A stretch of DNA of 64,000 nt from an uncultured Granulosicoccaceae bacterium (GTDB lineage: Bacteria; Pseudomonadota; Gammaproteobacteria; Granulosicoccales; Granulosicoccaceae). The DNA lies in contig CALIHW010000074.1 of NCBI GenBank assembly GCA_938020525.1, positions 1-64,000 on the forward strand. The letters run 5' to 3'. A program made the translations under genes and the position numbers. Under the pieces are notes generated by a model. That model worked only from the letters and a program-made list of their open reading frames with translations, was not told the origin of the DNA and did no database searches. Positions 30,051 to 37,891 of the stretch are shown in pieces; the stretch's first letter is position 1; each line of letters begins with the position of its first letter.

Positions 30051-30980
30051 TTATTCCGTATCATTTTGTTCACTCACTCTTTGCGATGCTACATATCCAA
30101 ATCCTACCTCGATCAAGCCTGCTGCAACTATAGCCAGCGCTCCCACCCATTGGACCCAGATCATAGATTCACCAGGTAACAGTATTGACGCACTGATAAC
30201 TGCCACCATAACTTCTGACATTGTCAAAATCGCTACTCGCCCGGGAAACAGTTTCTTTGAAATCTCGAAAATCACAAAAAAAGTCGGCAACAAAATAATA
30301 ATTGACCAGAACATCGCCGTTGGCAAAGCACTGACGATCATACTGACTTCAGGAAGTGAGATTTTGCCAGGTGCAAGCGCGAATAGAATAGATAGCAGGG
30401 TTGTTACAACGAAGATTAAGGCAGTTAGTGGCATTATGGGGATACCAGGCCAGCGTTTTAGGGCCGCCAGACTAAATGCCCAAAAAATACCAGCAAGTAG
30501 ACTATATAAATCGCCGATATTTATAGGCTGACCCGTTAATCCACCACCGGACAACAGTAAATACAATCCTATCAACGCTACAAAAATTGCAATAACGCGT
30601 GCTTTGGTTAGAAGCTCTGACAACCAGAGCACCCCAACCAGCGTCGACCAGACCGGAGTAAGATAATAGAGCATCGTCGCCCTGATAACAGTCGTCTCTA
30701 CCAGACCATTGCCAAAAAACGTAAACGCAGAGCCAATTAACAGCGCGGCTATTAAGGTAGGGCCGATAATCCCCTTAATTGATCTGACCTTAAACAACAA
30801 CACCGGCAGCAATACAAGTAACGGACAGGCATTGAAGAGCACCACACTCCAGGCACCGGACATGCCGGTCGCTTCAATACTTCTAAGTGGTATCCAGTAA
30901 AGACCCCAGGCAGCAGCGCTAACTACAAGCGCAATACTGAGTGTTCGTTCGGAATAGTGGCCAGGTTTGATCGATGCCAT
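30051..30980 (-). CDS. EamA/DMT-family transporter
   Basis: A 309-residue ten-helix DMT transporter converging on the other EamA gene. Features are the helix-1 region AAAWGLYWIPLRSIE and the end-of-repeat WLSELLTKARVIAIFVALIGLYLLL. It differs clearly from the 29032 protein, so this is not a recent duplication. Substrate unknown. Confidence 0.85.
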   Translation of the reverse strand: MASIKPGHYSERTLSIALVVSAAAWGLYWIPLRSIEATGMSGAWSVVLFNACPLLVLLPVLLFKVRSIKGIIGPTLIAALLIGSAFTFFGNGLVETTVIRATMLYYLTPVWSTLVGVLWLSELLTKARVIAIFVALIGLYLLLSGGGLTGQPINIGDLYSLLAGIFWAFSLAALKRWPGIPIMPLTALIFVVTTLLSILFALAPGKISLPEVSMIVSALPTAMFWSIIILLPTFFVIFEISKKLFPGRVAILTMSEVMVAVISASILLPGESMIWVQWVGALAIVAAGLIEVGFGYVASQRVSEQNDTE

Positions 30981-31098
30981 TGTTATACTTTATGTTCCAT
31001 AATCACGATATCGATGCCTCTGGTAATCTGCTTTTCGCTATCCAAAAACGGTAGGTAGATAACTTCACTTAAACACAGCGTATCACTACCCGAATACC

Positions 31099-31128
31099 GG
31101 ATTCACAACACGCGGATTCACAACACGC
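31099..31128. repeat. 15-bp direct repeat, two perfect units
   Basis: GGATTCACAACACGC occurs twice head to tail, 22 bp beyond the psuG stop. Confidence 0.75.
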
Positions 31129-31150
31129 AGTACAAGTAAATCTATGACAT

Positions 31151-32074
31151 TTACAGGCATTTAGCTACTTGAGAAGCAATCGCCGCGTTATTCAGCACCA
31201 GTTGTATATTGGTTTTCAGACTGTTGCCACCGGTTATCTCCGCTATCTTTTCTAAAAGAAATGGTGTTGTCTGTTTACCAGTAATGCCACGAGCATCCAT
31301 TTCTTTAAGTGCTTTACTTATAACTGCTTCTATCTCTTTTTCATCCATAGCATAAGCTTGCGGTACCGGCACACATATAACCACCCCTCCCTCAAGACCT
31401 ACAGCGTATTTTTTGTGCAGCACTGCGGCAATATCTTCAGGGGATTCAAGTCTGTAATCAACTGCGAATTCCGTTCGACGAGTGTAGAACGCGGGCCATA
31501 CATCCGTTTGATAGCCGATCACAGGCACACCTTGCGTCTCTAGATACTCACGGGTCAAACCAATATCTAAAATCGATTTTGCACCGGCACACACAACCGT
31601 CACACTGGTCTTGCCAAGTTCCGATAGATCAGCGGAGATATCCATAGTCTTTTCAGCGCCACGATGCACACCACCAATACCGCCCGTTGCAAATATTCTA
31701 ATCCCCGCCAGTGCCGCAATTATCATGGTGGCAGCGACTGTCGTTGACCCGATAGTGTTTTTGTTGTTTAGAACAAACGGAATATCACGCCGACTTACTT
31801 TTACTGCATCCAGACCCGTTTTACCTATAGATTCGATTTGCTCTTTTGAAAGCCCTGCATATAGTTTTCCATTCAAAATAGCGATAGTGGCCGGAACCGC
31901 ACCGTTAGCTCTTACCTGATCTTCAACCAACAACGCCGTTTCTACATTCTGTGGATACGGCATACCATGCGAAATAATAGTCGACTCAAGTGCCACCACT
32001 GGCTGCGATGCTTCAAGCGCAGATTTTACTTCATGACTTACAACTAGAAAATCAGTGAGATCGGTATTAGTCAT
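31151..32074 (-). CDS. psuG: Pseudouridine-5'-phosphate glycosidase
   Basis: A 307-residue enzyme that splits pseudouridine 5'-phosphate into uracil and ribose 5-phosphate. Family motifs: ALESTIISHGMPYPQNVETA, GKLYAGLSKEQIE, VSRRDIPFVL and FATGGIGGVHRGAE; NPNIATVP-like elements are replaced by family-consistent segments. The partner kinase lies 43 bp upstream on the same strand, giving the standard two-step pseudouridine salvage pair (PsuK then PsuG). Confidence 0.93.
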   Translation of the reverse strand: MTNTDLTDFLVVSHEVKSALEASQPVVALESTIISHGMPYPQNVETALLVEDQVRANGAVPATIAILNGKLYAGLSKEQIESIGKTGLDAVKVSRRDIPFVLNNKNTIGSTTVAATMIIAALAGIRIFATGGIGGVHRGAEKTMDISADLSELGKTSVTVVCAGAKSILDIGLTREYLETQGVPVIGYQTDVWPAFYTRRTEFAVDYRLESPEDIAAVLHKKYAVGLEGGVVICVPVPQAYAMDEKEIEAVISKALKEMDARGITGKQTTPFLLEKIAEITGGNSLKTNIQLVLNNAAIASQVAKCL

Positions 32075-32117
32075 CTTGTGTCGCTAATTAGAGAAAGAAC
32101 AAAAATCTGGTACGACG

Positions 32118-32963
32118 CTATTGCAGAATAAATTCCCGGCTCAGCTTATCACTACAGGCAGAATACACACCGAGCGTTTCGGCTGCAGTACGCATACCAC
32201 ACTGTAGCTGCAGTTCTACTGACAAACCAGCCAGCGCGGCGGCTATAACTCCACTCAACATAGCGTCACCCGCCCCACTGGTTGAAACAACATCAATACC
32301 CGGCAACGCCTCCGTTCTATAAACTTCACCATCAGTAACCAGAACCACACCGTCATCACCGGAGGTCAGGAGTACTTGTTCAGGCCCGAGTTTTCGCAAG
32401 GCGTCAAACAAATCTTCATCGTCTGCGATTTCAACACCGGTGAGTGCGATCGCTTCTGCCCTATTTACTTTCAGTAAAGACAACGAATCCAGCACACCGG
32501 ATAATCTTGTGCATTTGCTACGAGAAACACCATCGGCGTAAAGCATTGTCGATTGACAATGGCCTACAATATCTGTCAATGCAGACTCAGGCAAATTAGC
32601 ATCCAGTACTACCGCATCTGCTGCATCGATGATTTCCAGCATTTCCTGCGGCACCACCCCTGATTCAACAGATAGCTGAAACTCATCAAAAAGGCGCATG
32701 TCTGAGATCGCGTGTAGCAGCTCTCCATCGCAATCATGCACAGCAGTATAACTTGCAGTCGAGCCATTTTGCCGTAATGCAACATAACTCACATCGACTC
32801 CAATCTGCTGCAAATCGTTTAACACCTGTCTGCCAAACAGATCATCGCCAATTGCAGATACCAGACTGGTTTCACACCCTAATCTGCTCAGGTTTTCCGC
32901 TATGTTACGACCAACACCACCGGCATAACGCCTCAGCACCCCGGGTGTAGAGTCGTCAGCCAC
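32118..32963 (-). CDS. psuK: PfkB-family kinase, probable pseudouridine kinase, start uncertain
   Basis: A PfkB sugar/nucleoside kinase: YAGGVGRNIAENLSRLG (substrate Gly-Gly), the ATP motif VSTSGAGDAMLSGVIAA with catalytic Asp, and LKVNRAEAIALTG. Paired with psuG it should phosphorylate pseudouridine. The GTG at 32963 is the first conventional start, but the frame stays open to 33041 and encodes the missing first strand, including FGAINIDLLA with the substrate-binding Asp. That stretch has no ATG, GTG or TTG. Either a rare start (such as ATC at 33041 or a CTG) is used or the start codon has been lost. Confidence 0.8.
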   Translation of the reverse strand: MADDSTPGVLRRYAGGVGRNIAENLSRLGCETSLVSAIGDDLFGRQVLNDLQQIGVDVSYVALRQNGSTASYTAVHDCDGELLHAISDMRLFDEFQLSVESGVVPQEMLEIIDAADAVVLDANLPESALTDIVGHCQSTMLYADGVSRSKCTRLSGVLDSLSLLKVNRAEAIALTGVEIADDEDLFDALRKLGPEQVLLTSGDDGVVLVTDGEVYRTEALPGIDVVSTSGAGDAMLSGVIAAALAGLSVELQLQCGMRTAAETLGVYSACSDKLSREFILQ

Positions 32964-34501: not shown

Positions 34502-36028
34502 CTAGTTCTTAACAACCTCGAACTCATGCAGCGTAAAAGTACCCTGCCCCCAGAAAGTCTCTGTACCGATTTCAATCGCACCCATGCAGGTGTTGTTCTG
34601 TATTCGCGGCACACCATACGCAGAACCGTTGTATCGAACCCAATCTACAAATTTATTCCAATCAAGCCAGCCTTCCTGCCTTGGGCGCTGCGCTACAAAA
34701 GCGACATAGCCCCATCCAAGAGAAGGATTGGTATGTACATTCCAGCCGACCCCGTCGATAGTTACCTCAGCTACTTTCGGACCCGGCCCTCGGGTGACAG
34801 GCACTCCGACCCAAACCATCATTTCAAACTGCTTGTTCCATTCTTCCGCTTCACAACTGGTGTGAAAGAAAGATTCCAGCGCCACGTTGCGCTCCGGGTT
34901 TCCAGTTTCTGAATACTTGTAGCGCACTTTGAAGTTTGGCAGCTGATATAAAGGCGCTGGTAAACCCAGCTTCTCTGTAGAGCCGGAAATAGAATTACGG
35001 GTTTTTCTACCGTAGTAAACCTGCGGATAACTCTTTACAGAAAATTCATTGCCGCGATTCTTATCGAGCCAGTTATAGTCCCACTTGGCAATATACCGCG
35101 ACTCGTTTCCAGTTAGCTCAATGCACTGATGCCAGTTGTTTGAATAAACCTCACTGTCATTCCAGGTATTGTTCTGCAATGCATAATCACCATAGTGAAT
35201 CTCAGCCCAGGGCTGACACCAGCGTGTGTTCAACAATGGTTTTTCTGAAGTTGCGGTAACACCTTCAACCACGGTACAAGTCTGATTATCTTCATAACCA
35301 AAACCATCCTGATTGCCATCACTACCGTCAGTTAGACATATCGGTTTGCCTTGGCTGTAACCGGGCACACGAGCTCTCACCGGCCCTGGAACCCACACCG
35401 CTCCCGCAGAAGAATTGGGTGCAACAGATCCCCACTGACATGGGGTACCGTATTCCCAACCCCAACCGCCACCAGTATCCAGGGCACTGGCAGAGCACTC
35501 TCCGTTATTATTCGGTTGACCAACAACAATTGTATTTGCAGACGAACTGGAGCTCGATATTACCGTCGAGTCACCCCATCGACACGATTGACCGTTATCC
35601 CATCCCCATCCGTCACCATGGTCTAATGCAGACGTCGAGCACTCTATGGGTTCCGAGCTGCCAACAGTAGATTCACCCCACTGGCACGACACACCATTTT
35701 CAAAGCCCCACCCATCACCATGATTAGCAGCTAGCGCACTACACTGGGGCGCCGGAGCATGGGCCGCACCCACCTCAACAGCACCAGGCCACATGCATGA
35801 CTGGCCGTTTTCCCACCCCCACCCATTACCCGAGTCAACCGCAGCTCTGGTACAAACAAAGACTTCAGACCCTGTATTCGCGCTCGTGATGCTACTGCTG
35901 ATCACCGTTAGATCAGTATCTTGCGGCCCTGCAGCAGGACTGACGATGATATCGGTGTCGGCATCCTTGTGGTCCCCGCCACAAGCACAGACAAATACCA
36001 ATAAACACAATGGAAGAAGAGCTTTCAT
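34502..36028 (-). CDS. GH12-like endoglucanase lipoprotein with CBM10-like repeats
   Basis: A 508-residue lipoprotein (lipobox CAC, Cys near residue 16). Four cysteine-flanked modules in about residues 57-205 carry GWGWENGQSC, GWGFENGVSC, GWGWDNGQSC and GWGWEYGTPC, the hallmark of CBM10 cellulose-binding modules; a fifth degenerate one reads GFGYEDNQTC. Ser-rich linkers separate them. The C-terminal half resembles GH12: nucleophile Glu in FEMMVWVGVP, acid/base Glu in IGTETFWGQG. It probably binds and cuts beta-glucan at the cell surface. The modular number and lipid anchor are unusual for GH12. Confidence 0.72.
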   Translation of the reverse strand: MKALLPLCLLVFVCACGGDHKDADTDIIVSPAAGPQDTDLTVISSSITSANTGSEVFVCTRAAVDSGNGWGWENGQSCMWPGAVEVGAAHAPAPQCSALAANHGDGWGFENGVSCQWGESTVGSSEPIECSTSALDHGDGWGWDNGQSCRWGDSTVISSSSSSANTIVVGQPNNNGECSASALDTGGGWGWEYGTPCQWGSVAPNSSAGAVWVPGPVRARVPGYSQGKPICLTDGSDGNQDGFGYEDNQTCTVVEGVTATSEKPLLNTRWCQPWAEIHYGDYALQNNTWNDSEVYSNNWHQCIELTGNESRYIAKWDYNWLDKNRGNEFSVKSYPQVYYGRKTRNSISGSTEKLGLPAPLYQLPNFKVRYKYSETGNPERNVALESFFHTSCEAEEWNKQFEMMVWVGVPVTRGPGPKVAEVTIDGVGWNVHTNPSLGWGYVAFVAQRPRQEGWLDWNKFVDWVRYNGSAYGVPRIQNNTCMGAIEIGTETFWGQGTFTLHEFEVVKN

Positions 36029-36514: not shown

Positions 36515-36666
36515 CGTACAGTCCTCAATGGGTTTGGCGATGGCGTCGCCATACACTCCAGCGAGTGCTCCCCCGATGCGCCCAAGGGCCTATCGTTTTC
36601 ATCCTGTACGCCCGGAGATTTAATCCGGGGTAGTCAAAAACAACTCCGGATTCCATAACCGGAGTT
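36515..36666 (+). promoter_or_regulatory. Structured 5' leader, riboswitch candidate upstream of creatinase
   Basis: A closing stem CGTACAG (36515-36521) with CTGTACG (36604-36610) encloses TGGG/CCCA (36529-36532 with 36581-36584), a TGGCGA/TCGCCA hairpin (36535-36551) and a CACTC/GAGTG hairpin (36554-36567). Downstream are CCCGGA/TCCGGG (36611-36629) and AACTCCGG/CCGGAGTT (36642-36666). The last stem buries GGAG (36661-36664), the ribosome binding site 6 nt before the ATG. CCGGAG at 36612-36617 can instead pair with CTCCGG at 36644-36649 and free that site. It matches no riboswitch class I can recall. Confidence 0.6.
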
Positions 36667-36670
36667 AGTC

Positions 36671-37891
36671 ATGTCTCAAAGAACAGAGTTTTTCAATTTC
36701 GAGCACGGATCATCGCAGGGACCGGGTTCTGCCTTGCCTTTCGCAAAGTCCGAGTTTGATGAACGCGTAACCAATATACGCAAGCGACTCGAACACCTCG
36801 ATCTCGATGCAGTTGTTTTTAGCTCGATGCACTGCATTGCGTACTACAGCGGATTTTTGTACTGCGCGTTTGGCAGACCCTACGGCTGCGTGATAACGAA
36901 AGACAAAGTCGTCACCATCTCCGCCAATATTGATGCCGGCCAGCCGGCCCGCTGTGGTGCATTTGATAATCTTGTCTATACCGATTGGCAGCGGGATAAC
37001 TACTGGCGTGCTGTAAGAAGCGTTGCAGGCAATGCAAAACGCATTGGTATCGAAGGAGATCATCTCACGCTTCAGCAACAGCAAAAGTTGACAGAGTTTT
37101 TCCCTGGCGCAGAAACCATCGACATAGCAGCTGAAACAATGCAGCAACGCATGCATAAATCTCCTGCAGAAATAGCGCTAATAAAAGAAGGCGCTCGAGT
37201 TGCAGATATTGGTGGCTATGCGGTTCGTGACGCAATAAAAGCAGGTACCCGTGAAATAGATATCGCTATGGCGGGCCGCGATGCAATGGAACTCGAGATC
37301 GCTAAAAGTTTTCCTGATTCTGAGTACCGCGACACCTGGGTGTGGTTTCAATCAGGCATTAATACTGATGGAGCTCACAACCCGGTGACTGCACGCAAGC
37401 TTAAGCACGGCGATATCCTTAGCATGAATACCTTCCCGATGATAAACGGCTACTACACAGCACTTGAGCGCACGCTGTTTGTCGGCGAAGCAGATCCGGA
37501 ATCACTTAAACTGTGGGAAGCCAATGTCGGTGCACATGAACTTGGTTTATCGATCATTAAGCCAGGTACCAGTTGTGCCGCAATATGTGATGAAATTAAC
37601 CGCTACTTCGAAGACCTCAATTTATTGCAGTACCGTGCATTCGGCTATGGCCACTCATTTGGTGTGTTAAGTCACTACTACGGTCGTGAAGCAGGTCTGG
37701 AGCTAAGAGAAGACATCGATACTGTTCTTGAACCCGGCATGGTGATTTCTATGGAGCCTATGTTAACAGTTCCGGAAACCAAACCCGGCGCAGGTGGTTA
37801 TCGCGAGCATGATATTCTGGTCATTACCGAAGTTGGTGCAGAAAATATCACAGGCTTTCCCTTTGGGCCTCAACATAATATTGTTGGCTAG
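36671..37891 (+). CDS. Creatinase-like amidinohydrolase
   Basis: A 406-residue pita-bread-fold (M24) protein, the size of creatinase (about 404). It has the creatinase-type N-terminal domain (FCAFGRPYGCVIT pattern, GQPARC, YTDWQRDNYWRAV) and the C-terminal catalytic fold with GYGHSFGVLSH and a Glu in MVISMEPML. Metal ligands of M24 peptidases are partly replaced, as expected for a metal-free creatinase that splits creatine into sarcosine and urea. Ectoine hydrolase or prolidase are alternatives. Single-gene unit, with a structured leader and its own terminator. Confidence 0.78.
   Translation: MSQRTEFFNFEHGSSQGPGSALPFAKSEFDERVTNIRKRLEHLDLDAVVFSSMHCIAYYSGFLYCAFGRPYGCVITKDKVVTISANIDAGQPARCGAFDNLVYTDWQRDNYWRAVRSVAGNAKRIGIEGDHLTLQQQQKLTEFFPGAETIDIAAETMQQRMHKSPAEIALIKEGARVADIGGYAVRDAIKAGTREIDIAMAGRDAMELEIAKSFPDSEYRDTWVWFQSGINTDGAHNPVTARKLKHGDILSMNTFPMINGYYTALERTLFVGEADPESLKLWEANVGAHELGLSIIKPGTSCAAICDEINRYFEDLNLLQYRAFGYGHSFGVLSHYYGREAGLELREDIDTVLEPGMVISMEPMLTVPETKPGAGGYREHDILVITEVGAENITGFPFGPQHNIVG

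Follow-up and report, generated by a model that had tools for sequence, protein, structure and literature searches.

A conserved leader RNA of bacterial creatinase genes and its possible role as a creatine-sensing riboswitch of a new kissing-loop class

Introduction

Guanidine-II riboswitches (mini-ykkC, RF01068) are built from two hairpins whose small complementary loops can kiss, carry ACGR tetraloops on both hairpins, and act through translational control. The guanidine-I, -III, and -IV riboswitches control guanidine-related genes and small-molecule transporters, while the glycine riboswitch is an ON switch over the catabolism of a small amine-containing metabolite. Evidence of the same type as that given below, a conserved structured element in the 5' UTR near metabolic genes, underlies the riboswitch candidates of a 2024 survey of 50 genomes, in whose main text no element is mentioned for creatinase or amidinotransferase or from Rhodobacter or Roseobacter (PMC11109978). 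The open literature yielded nothing relevant that links creatinase, creatine, guanidinoacetate, or creatininase with a riboswitch.

The window considered here, a stretch of 64,000 nucleotides from an uncultured Granulosicoccaceae bacterium, contains a creatinase gene preceded by a leader that an earlier sequence-only reading had described as riboswitch-like and as controlling ribosome access to the creatinase mRNA, a proposal now backed by conservation, covariation, gene context, and a platform able to sequester the Shine-Dalgarno (SD) sequence. That reading had named in advance two tests that could overturn it, conservation and covariation in orthologous leaders and a search of Rfam; the leader passed the first, and in the second no family matched it in the window (E ≤ 10), nor in 23 related loci (E ≤ 1). 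An sroD match on the opposite strand (E 1.1) was dismissed as chance.

The leader resembles guanidine-II in having two hairpins with small complementary loops capable of kissing, in its apparent translational control, and in that its presumed ligand has a guanidinium group. It differs in its additional P1 stem and junction, in the genes that it precedes, and in its loops, which are UGGCG and UGNACGCCN instead of two ACGR; that ACGR loops are absent had already been remarked in the sequence-only reading. Since it neither matches the Rfam model nor carries ACGR tetraloops on both hairpins, it is not a guanidine-II riboswitch, which is the nearest class in spirit only. From guanidine-I, -III, and -IV, which resemble it in the kinds of genes that they control, it is set apart by fold, gene context, and the lack of an Rfam match; from the glycine riboswitch, which its proposed role as a catabolic ON switch resembles, by the lack of both an Rfam match and a tandem aptamer. 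The leader is almost certainly a conserved structured cis-regulatory RNA. The fuller reading, that it belongs to an undescribed class and is a translational ON riboswitch most likely sensing creatine, is given about an even chance.

The Creatinase Gene and Its Leader

The gene at 36671–37891 (+) is predicted to encode a creatinase (creatine amidinohydrolase, M24 family) of 406 amino acids with the Pfam domains PF00557 and PF01321. Among solved structures its best relative is 1chm, a creatine amidinohydrolase (E 6.4e-153; residues 23–405 aligned). The homology to solved creatinases is full-length, and both the GAHNPVT and the SHYYGREAG motif are intact. Beside it, on the minus strand (34502–36028), lies a gene for a secreted-looking protein with glycosyl hydrolase family 12 and CBM_10 domains, and farther away an Indigoidine_A/PsuG-like protein and a pseudouridine-kinase-like sugar kinase (30051–32963, minus strand) adjoin an EamA-type transporter, probably forming a pseudouridine catabolic cluster.

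The leader folds only moderately better than its dinucleotide shuffles (z −2.63, or −2.04 for the likely transcript alone), so that comparative evidence was needed to decide whether its structure is meaningful. To this end 57 relatives were gathered by protein search and their upstream DNA was then inspected. Near orthologues share two upstream blocks, of the form [stem]GAUGGCGUC[stem'] and, farther downstream, UCCUGNACGCCNGGA, and both blocks precede all 20 of the near-clade creatinases in the window's own family, loci picked out through homology of the protein, with no regard to the motif. One locus of this family (L008), at first taken to have no element, carries a variant with UUCUG.

These blocks correspond to two hairpins of a compact element in which a stem, P1, encloses the hairpin P2 and an optional P3, and P4 follows as a second, downstream hairpin. 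All parts lie on the plus strand. In the window, P2 (36535–36551) has the form UGGCGA-UGGCG-UCGCCA with its loop at 36541–36545, and the optional P3 (CACUC/GAGUG, 36554–36567), drawn from the predicted fold, varies strongly in length among members. P4 (36602–36616) reads UCC-UGUACGCCC-GGA, its general form in the element being [R]UCC-UGNACGCCN-GGA[Y]. A further hairpin at 36574–36595 is predicted by folding and appears to be lineage-specific.

Covariation of the Stems and Constancy of the Loops

Covariation was assessed for the six pairs of P2 and the four pairs of P4 in an alignment of 54 sequences. Two-sided changes occur at nine of these ten pairs, including all four of P4, and 71 cells show them where shuffles give 17.9 (sd 4.9); 97.5% of cells are paired, a count that includes four invariant loop-loop pairs, against 31–42% in slid registers. 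Five of the six P2 pairs covary in this way in alignment A2, and the sixth does so in L260, where both inner P2 pairs are swapped. The 5' UTR therefore holds a conserved structured RNA whose stems are supported by covariation. Variants collected independently of the motif point the same way, with the UCC/GGA of P4 replaced by CCC/GGG, by UCG/CGA (L194), or by UUC/GAA (L235), and with GAUGGCGUC of P2 becoming GGUGGCGCC in L208 and L261.

The loops behave differently from the stems. UGGCG and UGNACGCCN are nearly fixed in the 107 members that lie outside the loop-pattern selection, UGGCG being present in 107 of 107. The GGCG of the P2 loop (36542–36545) and the CGCC of the P4 loop (36609–36612) are exact complements and do not vary, which suggests that the two loops can kiss through these bases; because the invariance leaves no covariation to support it, the kissing contact is inferred and not proved. 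Loops far more constant than the stems are unlike those of RNA thermometers, and this argues against a ligand-free element, be it a thermometer or a constitutive structural or mRNA-stability element, such as the GC-rich stems close to the ribosome-binding site might otherwise bring to mind; an element of this kind would also hardly track one gene clade as the leader does (see below), and we regard it as quite improbable.

P1 is formed by the segment just 5' of P2 and a segment after P2/P3. An unrestricted search was too noisy to place it, and it was located by a restricted search with a swapped-partner control, in which 212 members scored 13.02 with their own partners and 11.19 with swapped ones (sd 0.21; maximum 11.90 in 300 swaps). 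The window's P1 is weak, with three pairs only (GGG, 36530–36532, with CCC, 36570–36572), and draws its support from these 212 members. In 11 of 20 orthologues a TATAAT-like −10 box stands 14–18 nt ahead of the P2 core, so that transcripts probably begin at P1.

This architecture departs from that of the sequence-only reading. Every segment named there was found where it had been placed, but the multibranched domain that it regarded as the aptamer, closed by CGTACAG (36515–36521) with CTGTACG (36604–36610), is unsupported, and the actual core consists of P1, P2, and P4 with their complementary loops. Although the closing stem has seven perfect pairs in the window and appears in the minimum-energy fold when upstream DNA is included, complementarity of at least 6 nt between the upstream region and the corresponding segment was seen in 9 of 212 relatives, where shuffles would give 9.8. 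Its 3' arm overlaps the P4 loop, and its 5' arm overlaps a putative −10 box, TACAGT (36517–36522, by consensus match), at a place where other members have TATAAT-like boxes; as transcripts probably start at P1, this arm is in part promoter. The chance that such a domain is the aptamer is negligible. Among the internal helices that had been proposed, the one at 36535–36551 proved to be conserved, though it had been counted as no more than an internal helix, and the hairpin at 36602–36616 had been missed.

The P2 loop also contains an AUG in nearly all members (GUG in the two variants L208 and L261), which could make it the start of a regulatory upstream open reading frame encoding a leader peptide. 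The spacing between the core and P4 is, however, even over the three frames (71/71/70), which argues against a leader peptide, and on this ground the reading frame was rejected; in addition, its lengths are scattered, a start so near the 5' end of the transcript leaves little room for an SD sequence, and the stem changes are compensatory. A leader peptide is accordingly very improbable.

Distribution of the Element

A test independent of the motif was made with 90 creatinases of about 62% identity or more from the family that contains the Rhodobacteraceae (f216). The element precedes 88 of them, the exceptions being L273 and L276, and none of the creatinases of this family below 60% identity has it. 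It is likewise absent from all leaders inspected in the other creatinase group, whose members are roughly 52–59% identical. In a tree of 46 creatinases every leader-bearing gene falls on one side of a branch with 100/100 support and none in the other clade, and in two genomes with both kinds of creatinase (G689, G783) the leader stands only before the near-clade gene.

Covariance models extended this range, and before creatinase the element recurs across hundreds of marine bacteria. With one model (R2), 191 of 298 f216 genomes have a match at E ≤ 1e-5, and further alphaproteobacterial families contain the element as well. Another model (R1) detects it in families of the window's class other than the window's own (L033–L035 and L038), matches below 30 bits being left out of that search except for L038. 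This last member (minus strand, from 1343) has a 188-nt spacer between core and P4 that holds a very long P3-like hairpin, which shows that the junction can accommodate large insertions. A pattern scan of species genomes returned at least 118 stretches, mostly from Rhodobacteraceae and also from Granulosicoccus, Thalassospira, SAR116, and others, and the window's own genome has one copy. The exact pattern was not found in viral contigs, and matches in Lentzea, Halorubrum, Microtetraspora, and a Chloroflexi MAG were set aside as chance, having neither P2 pairing nor target genes. At one locus (L327, in G757) all that follows a well-scoring element is a short remnant of the creatinase C-terminus, a deletion having apparently left the leader orphaned.

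Four of eight leaderless loci (L022, L024, L025, and L026) have a divergent regulator of the LysR family instead, which suggests that the RNA element stands in for a protein regulator. Several promoters among these four loci share a motif like CATGAAAAATGATCTTTTGACC.

The Regulated Genes and the Likely Ligand

Target genes were sampled within Pseudomonadota or from the matches listed. Among the 118 distinct instances listed from the pattern scan, 89 precede a creatinase, three more are truncated loci that start like creatinase, and 10 precede an EamA transporter, three an amidinotransferase, and two a serine hydrolase. The remaining 11, in which P2 pairing is nearly absent and no such target gene follows, are chance matches and serve as an internal control. 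Further EamA and amidinotransferase genes came from second sites in f216 genomes, together with an SDR/serine-hydrolase operon and a Rieske oxygenase.

L-arginine:glycine amidinotransferase (AGAT) makes the precursor of creatine in animals, and the human enzyme is the closest relative of the amidinotransferase in the PDB (E 1.6e-84). In L072, L320, and L321 the amidinotransferase gene adjoins the creatinase gene in convergent orientation, and each has a separate copy of the element. The AGAT-like protein (L072:1360–4116; L319:621–1739; L320; L321) is about 90–94% identical between several genera of the Rhodobacteraceae family, and its gene carries its own element copy. The element also stands before genes for a 7-alpha-hydroxysteroid-dehydrogenase-like SDR with a serine hydrolase, and for a VanA-type Rieske oxygenase, which have no evident link to creatine (L333:4412–5176, minus strand; L122:664–4340; L315:426–1466, minus strand); the steroid-type genes among them are at odds with a creatine ligand.

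The associated genes thus share one metabolic theme, with creatinase dominant, an AGAT-like gene and a transporter in addition, and a few unrelated genes. Taken with the structure, this gene context indicates that the leader is probably a metabolite-binding riboswitch. For its ligand, creatine itself, the most economical choice, has roughly an equal chance of being right or wrong. Guanidinoacetate or another guanidino compound would be the main alternative, within a broader possibility that the same riboswitch answers to guanidinoacetate, guanidine, creatinine, sarcosine, urea, or some wider signal that would also concern the amidinotransferase and EamA genes. The presence of the element on those genes, the amidinotransferase yielding guanidinoacetate if its activity is that of AGAT, and on the SDR/serine-hydrolase operon and the Rieske gene speaks for such a ligand; the dominance of creatinase, which outside Rhodobacteraceae is the sole target gene among the matches listed, speaks against it, and we consider it rather unlikely, if still a serious contender.

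The small conserved loops would also suit recognition by a protein, either a regulator or the creatinase enzyme, and several target loci in one genome would permit regulation in trans. Yet the element covers several families without a constant neighbouring regulator gene, clustering of the neighbours of leader-bearing loci having returned no constant partner gene or regulator, and riboswitches typically show such a combination of two nearly fixed complementary loops with SD pairings that exclude each other. A protein site is therefore judged improbable, and a metabolite sensor is the preferred reading in what follows.

The Expression Platform and a Model for Switching

P4 lies 41–71 nt from the start codon in most members listed, as expected under translational control. 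In the window, P4 uses GGA (36614–36616) and its loop presents CGCC, and the same bases can instead build a hairpin, CCCGGA/UCCGGG (36611–36629), that excludes P4. This hairpin (36611–36616 with 36624–36629) had been described in the sequence-only reading and was recovered here, as was the pairing AACTCCGG/CCGGAGTT (36642–36649 with 36659–36666) that buries GGAG. In the predicted free fold of the window, CCCGGA/UCCGGG forms and AACUCCGG pairs with CCGGAGUU (36642–36666), sequestering the SD sequence GGAG (36661–36664). A pairing that competes with this sequestor was also proposed earlier, and one does exist in the models; a better competitor than the CCGGAG/CTCCGG then suggested is an anti-sequestor of AAUCCGG (36622–36628) with CCGGAUU (36646–36652), which appears when P2 and P4 are forced.

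Modelled in this way, the SD sequence of the window is unpaired at 1% in the free fold and at 27% with P2 and P4 forced. Forcing the aptamer raised SD exposure in nine and lowered it in none of 23 leaders of the window's class, raised it in 24 and lowered it in seven of 89 alphaproteobacterial creatinase leaders, and was about neutral for the leaders of EamA and amidinotransferase genes. The mutually exclusive pairings stand out in the window and in some of the members, many others being neutral, and the effect depends on the energy model. These predictions support an ON switch for creatinase, of modest effect and absent in most members.

A model of the switch can be proposed on this basis. 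Transcription would start at P1, which would close a junction holding P2 and the optional P3, and the downstream hairpin P4 would contact the P2 loop via GGCG/CGCC, with the ligand bound at or near this loop-loop contact. When no ligand is present, CCCGGA, the 3' half of P4, would pair with UCCGGG, and AACUCCGG, left free, would form the sequestor with CCGGAGUU, hiding the ribosome-binding site. With the ligand, most likely creatine as the substrate of the encoded enzyme, P4 and the loop contact would hold CCCGGA, AAUCCGG would pair with CCGGAUU, and the ribosome-binding site would be freed. As P4 takes up CCCGGA and so frees the anti-sequestor, the ligand should turn translation on.

Implications

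The strengths of this candidate are its strong covariation, the compactness of its fold, and a connection to particular genes that is unusually clear. We lean slightly toward a widespread new kissing-loop class for creatine (or guanidinoacetate) that switches creatinase on and, in some marine bacteria, is found on the AGAT mRNA. The minority genes, encoding AGAT, EamA, SDR/serine hydrolase, and Rieske proteins, offer independent clues to a little-known guanidino metabolism. If creatine is bound, this would be the first natural RNA sensor for creatine found so far in the open literature and a ready biosensor part, a sensor RNA for a metabolite best known from animals. It would also explain how marine Rhodobacteraceae, with no protein regulator devoted to the task, control their use of creatine that comes from animals.
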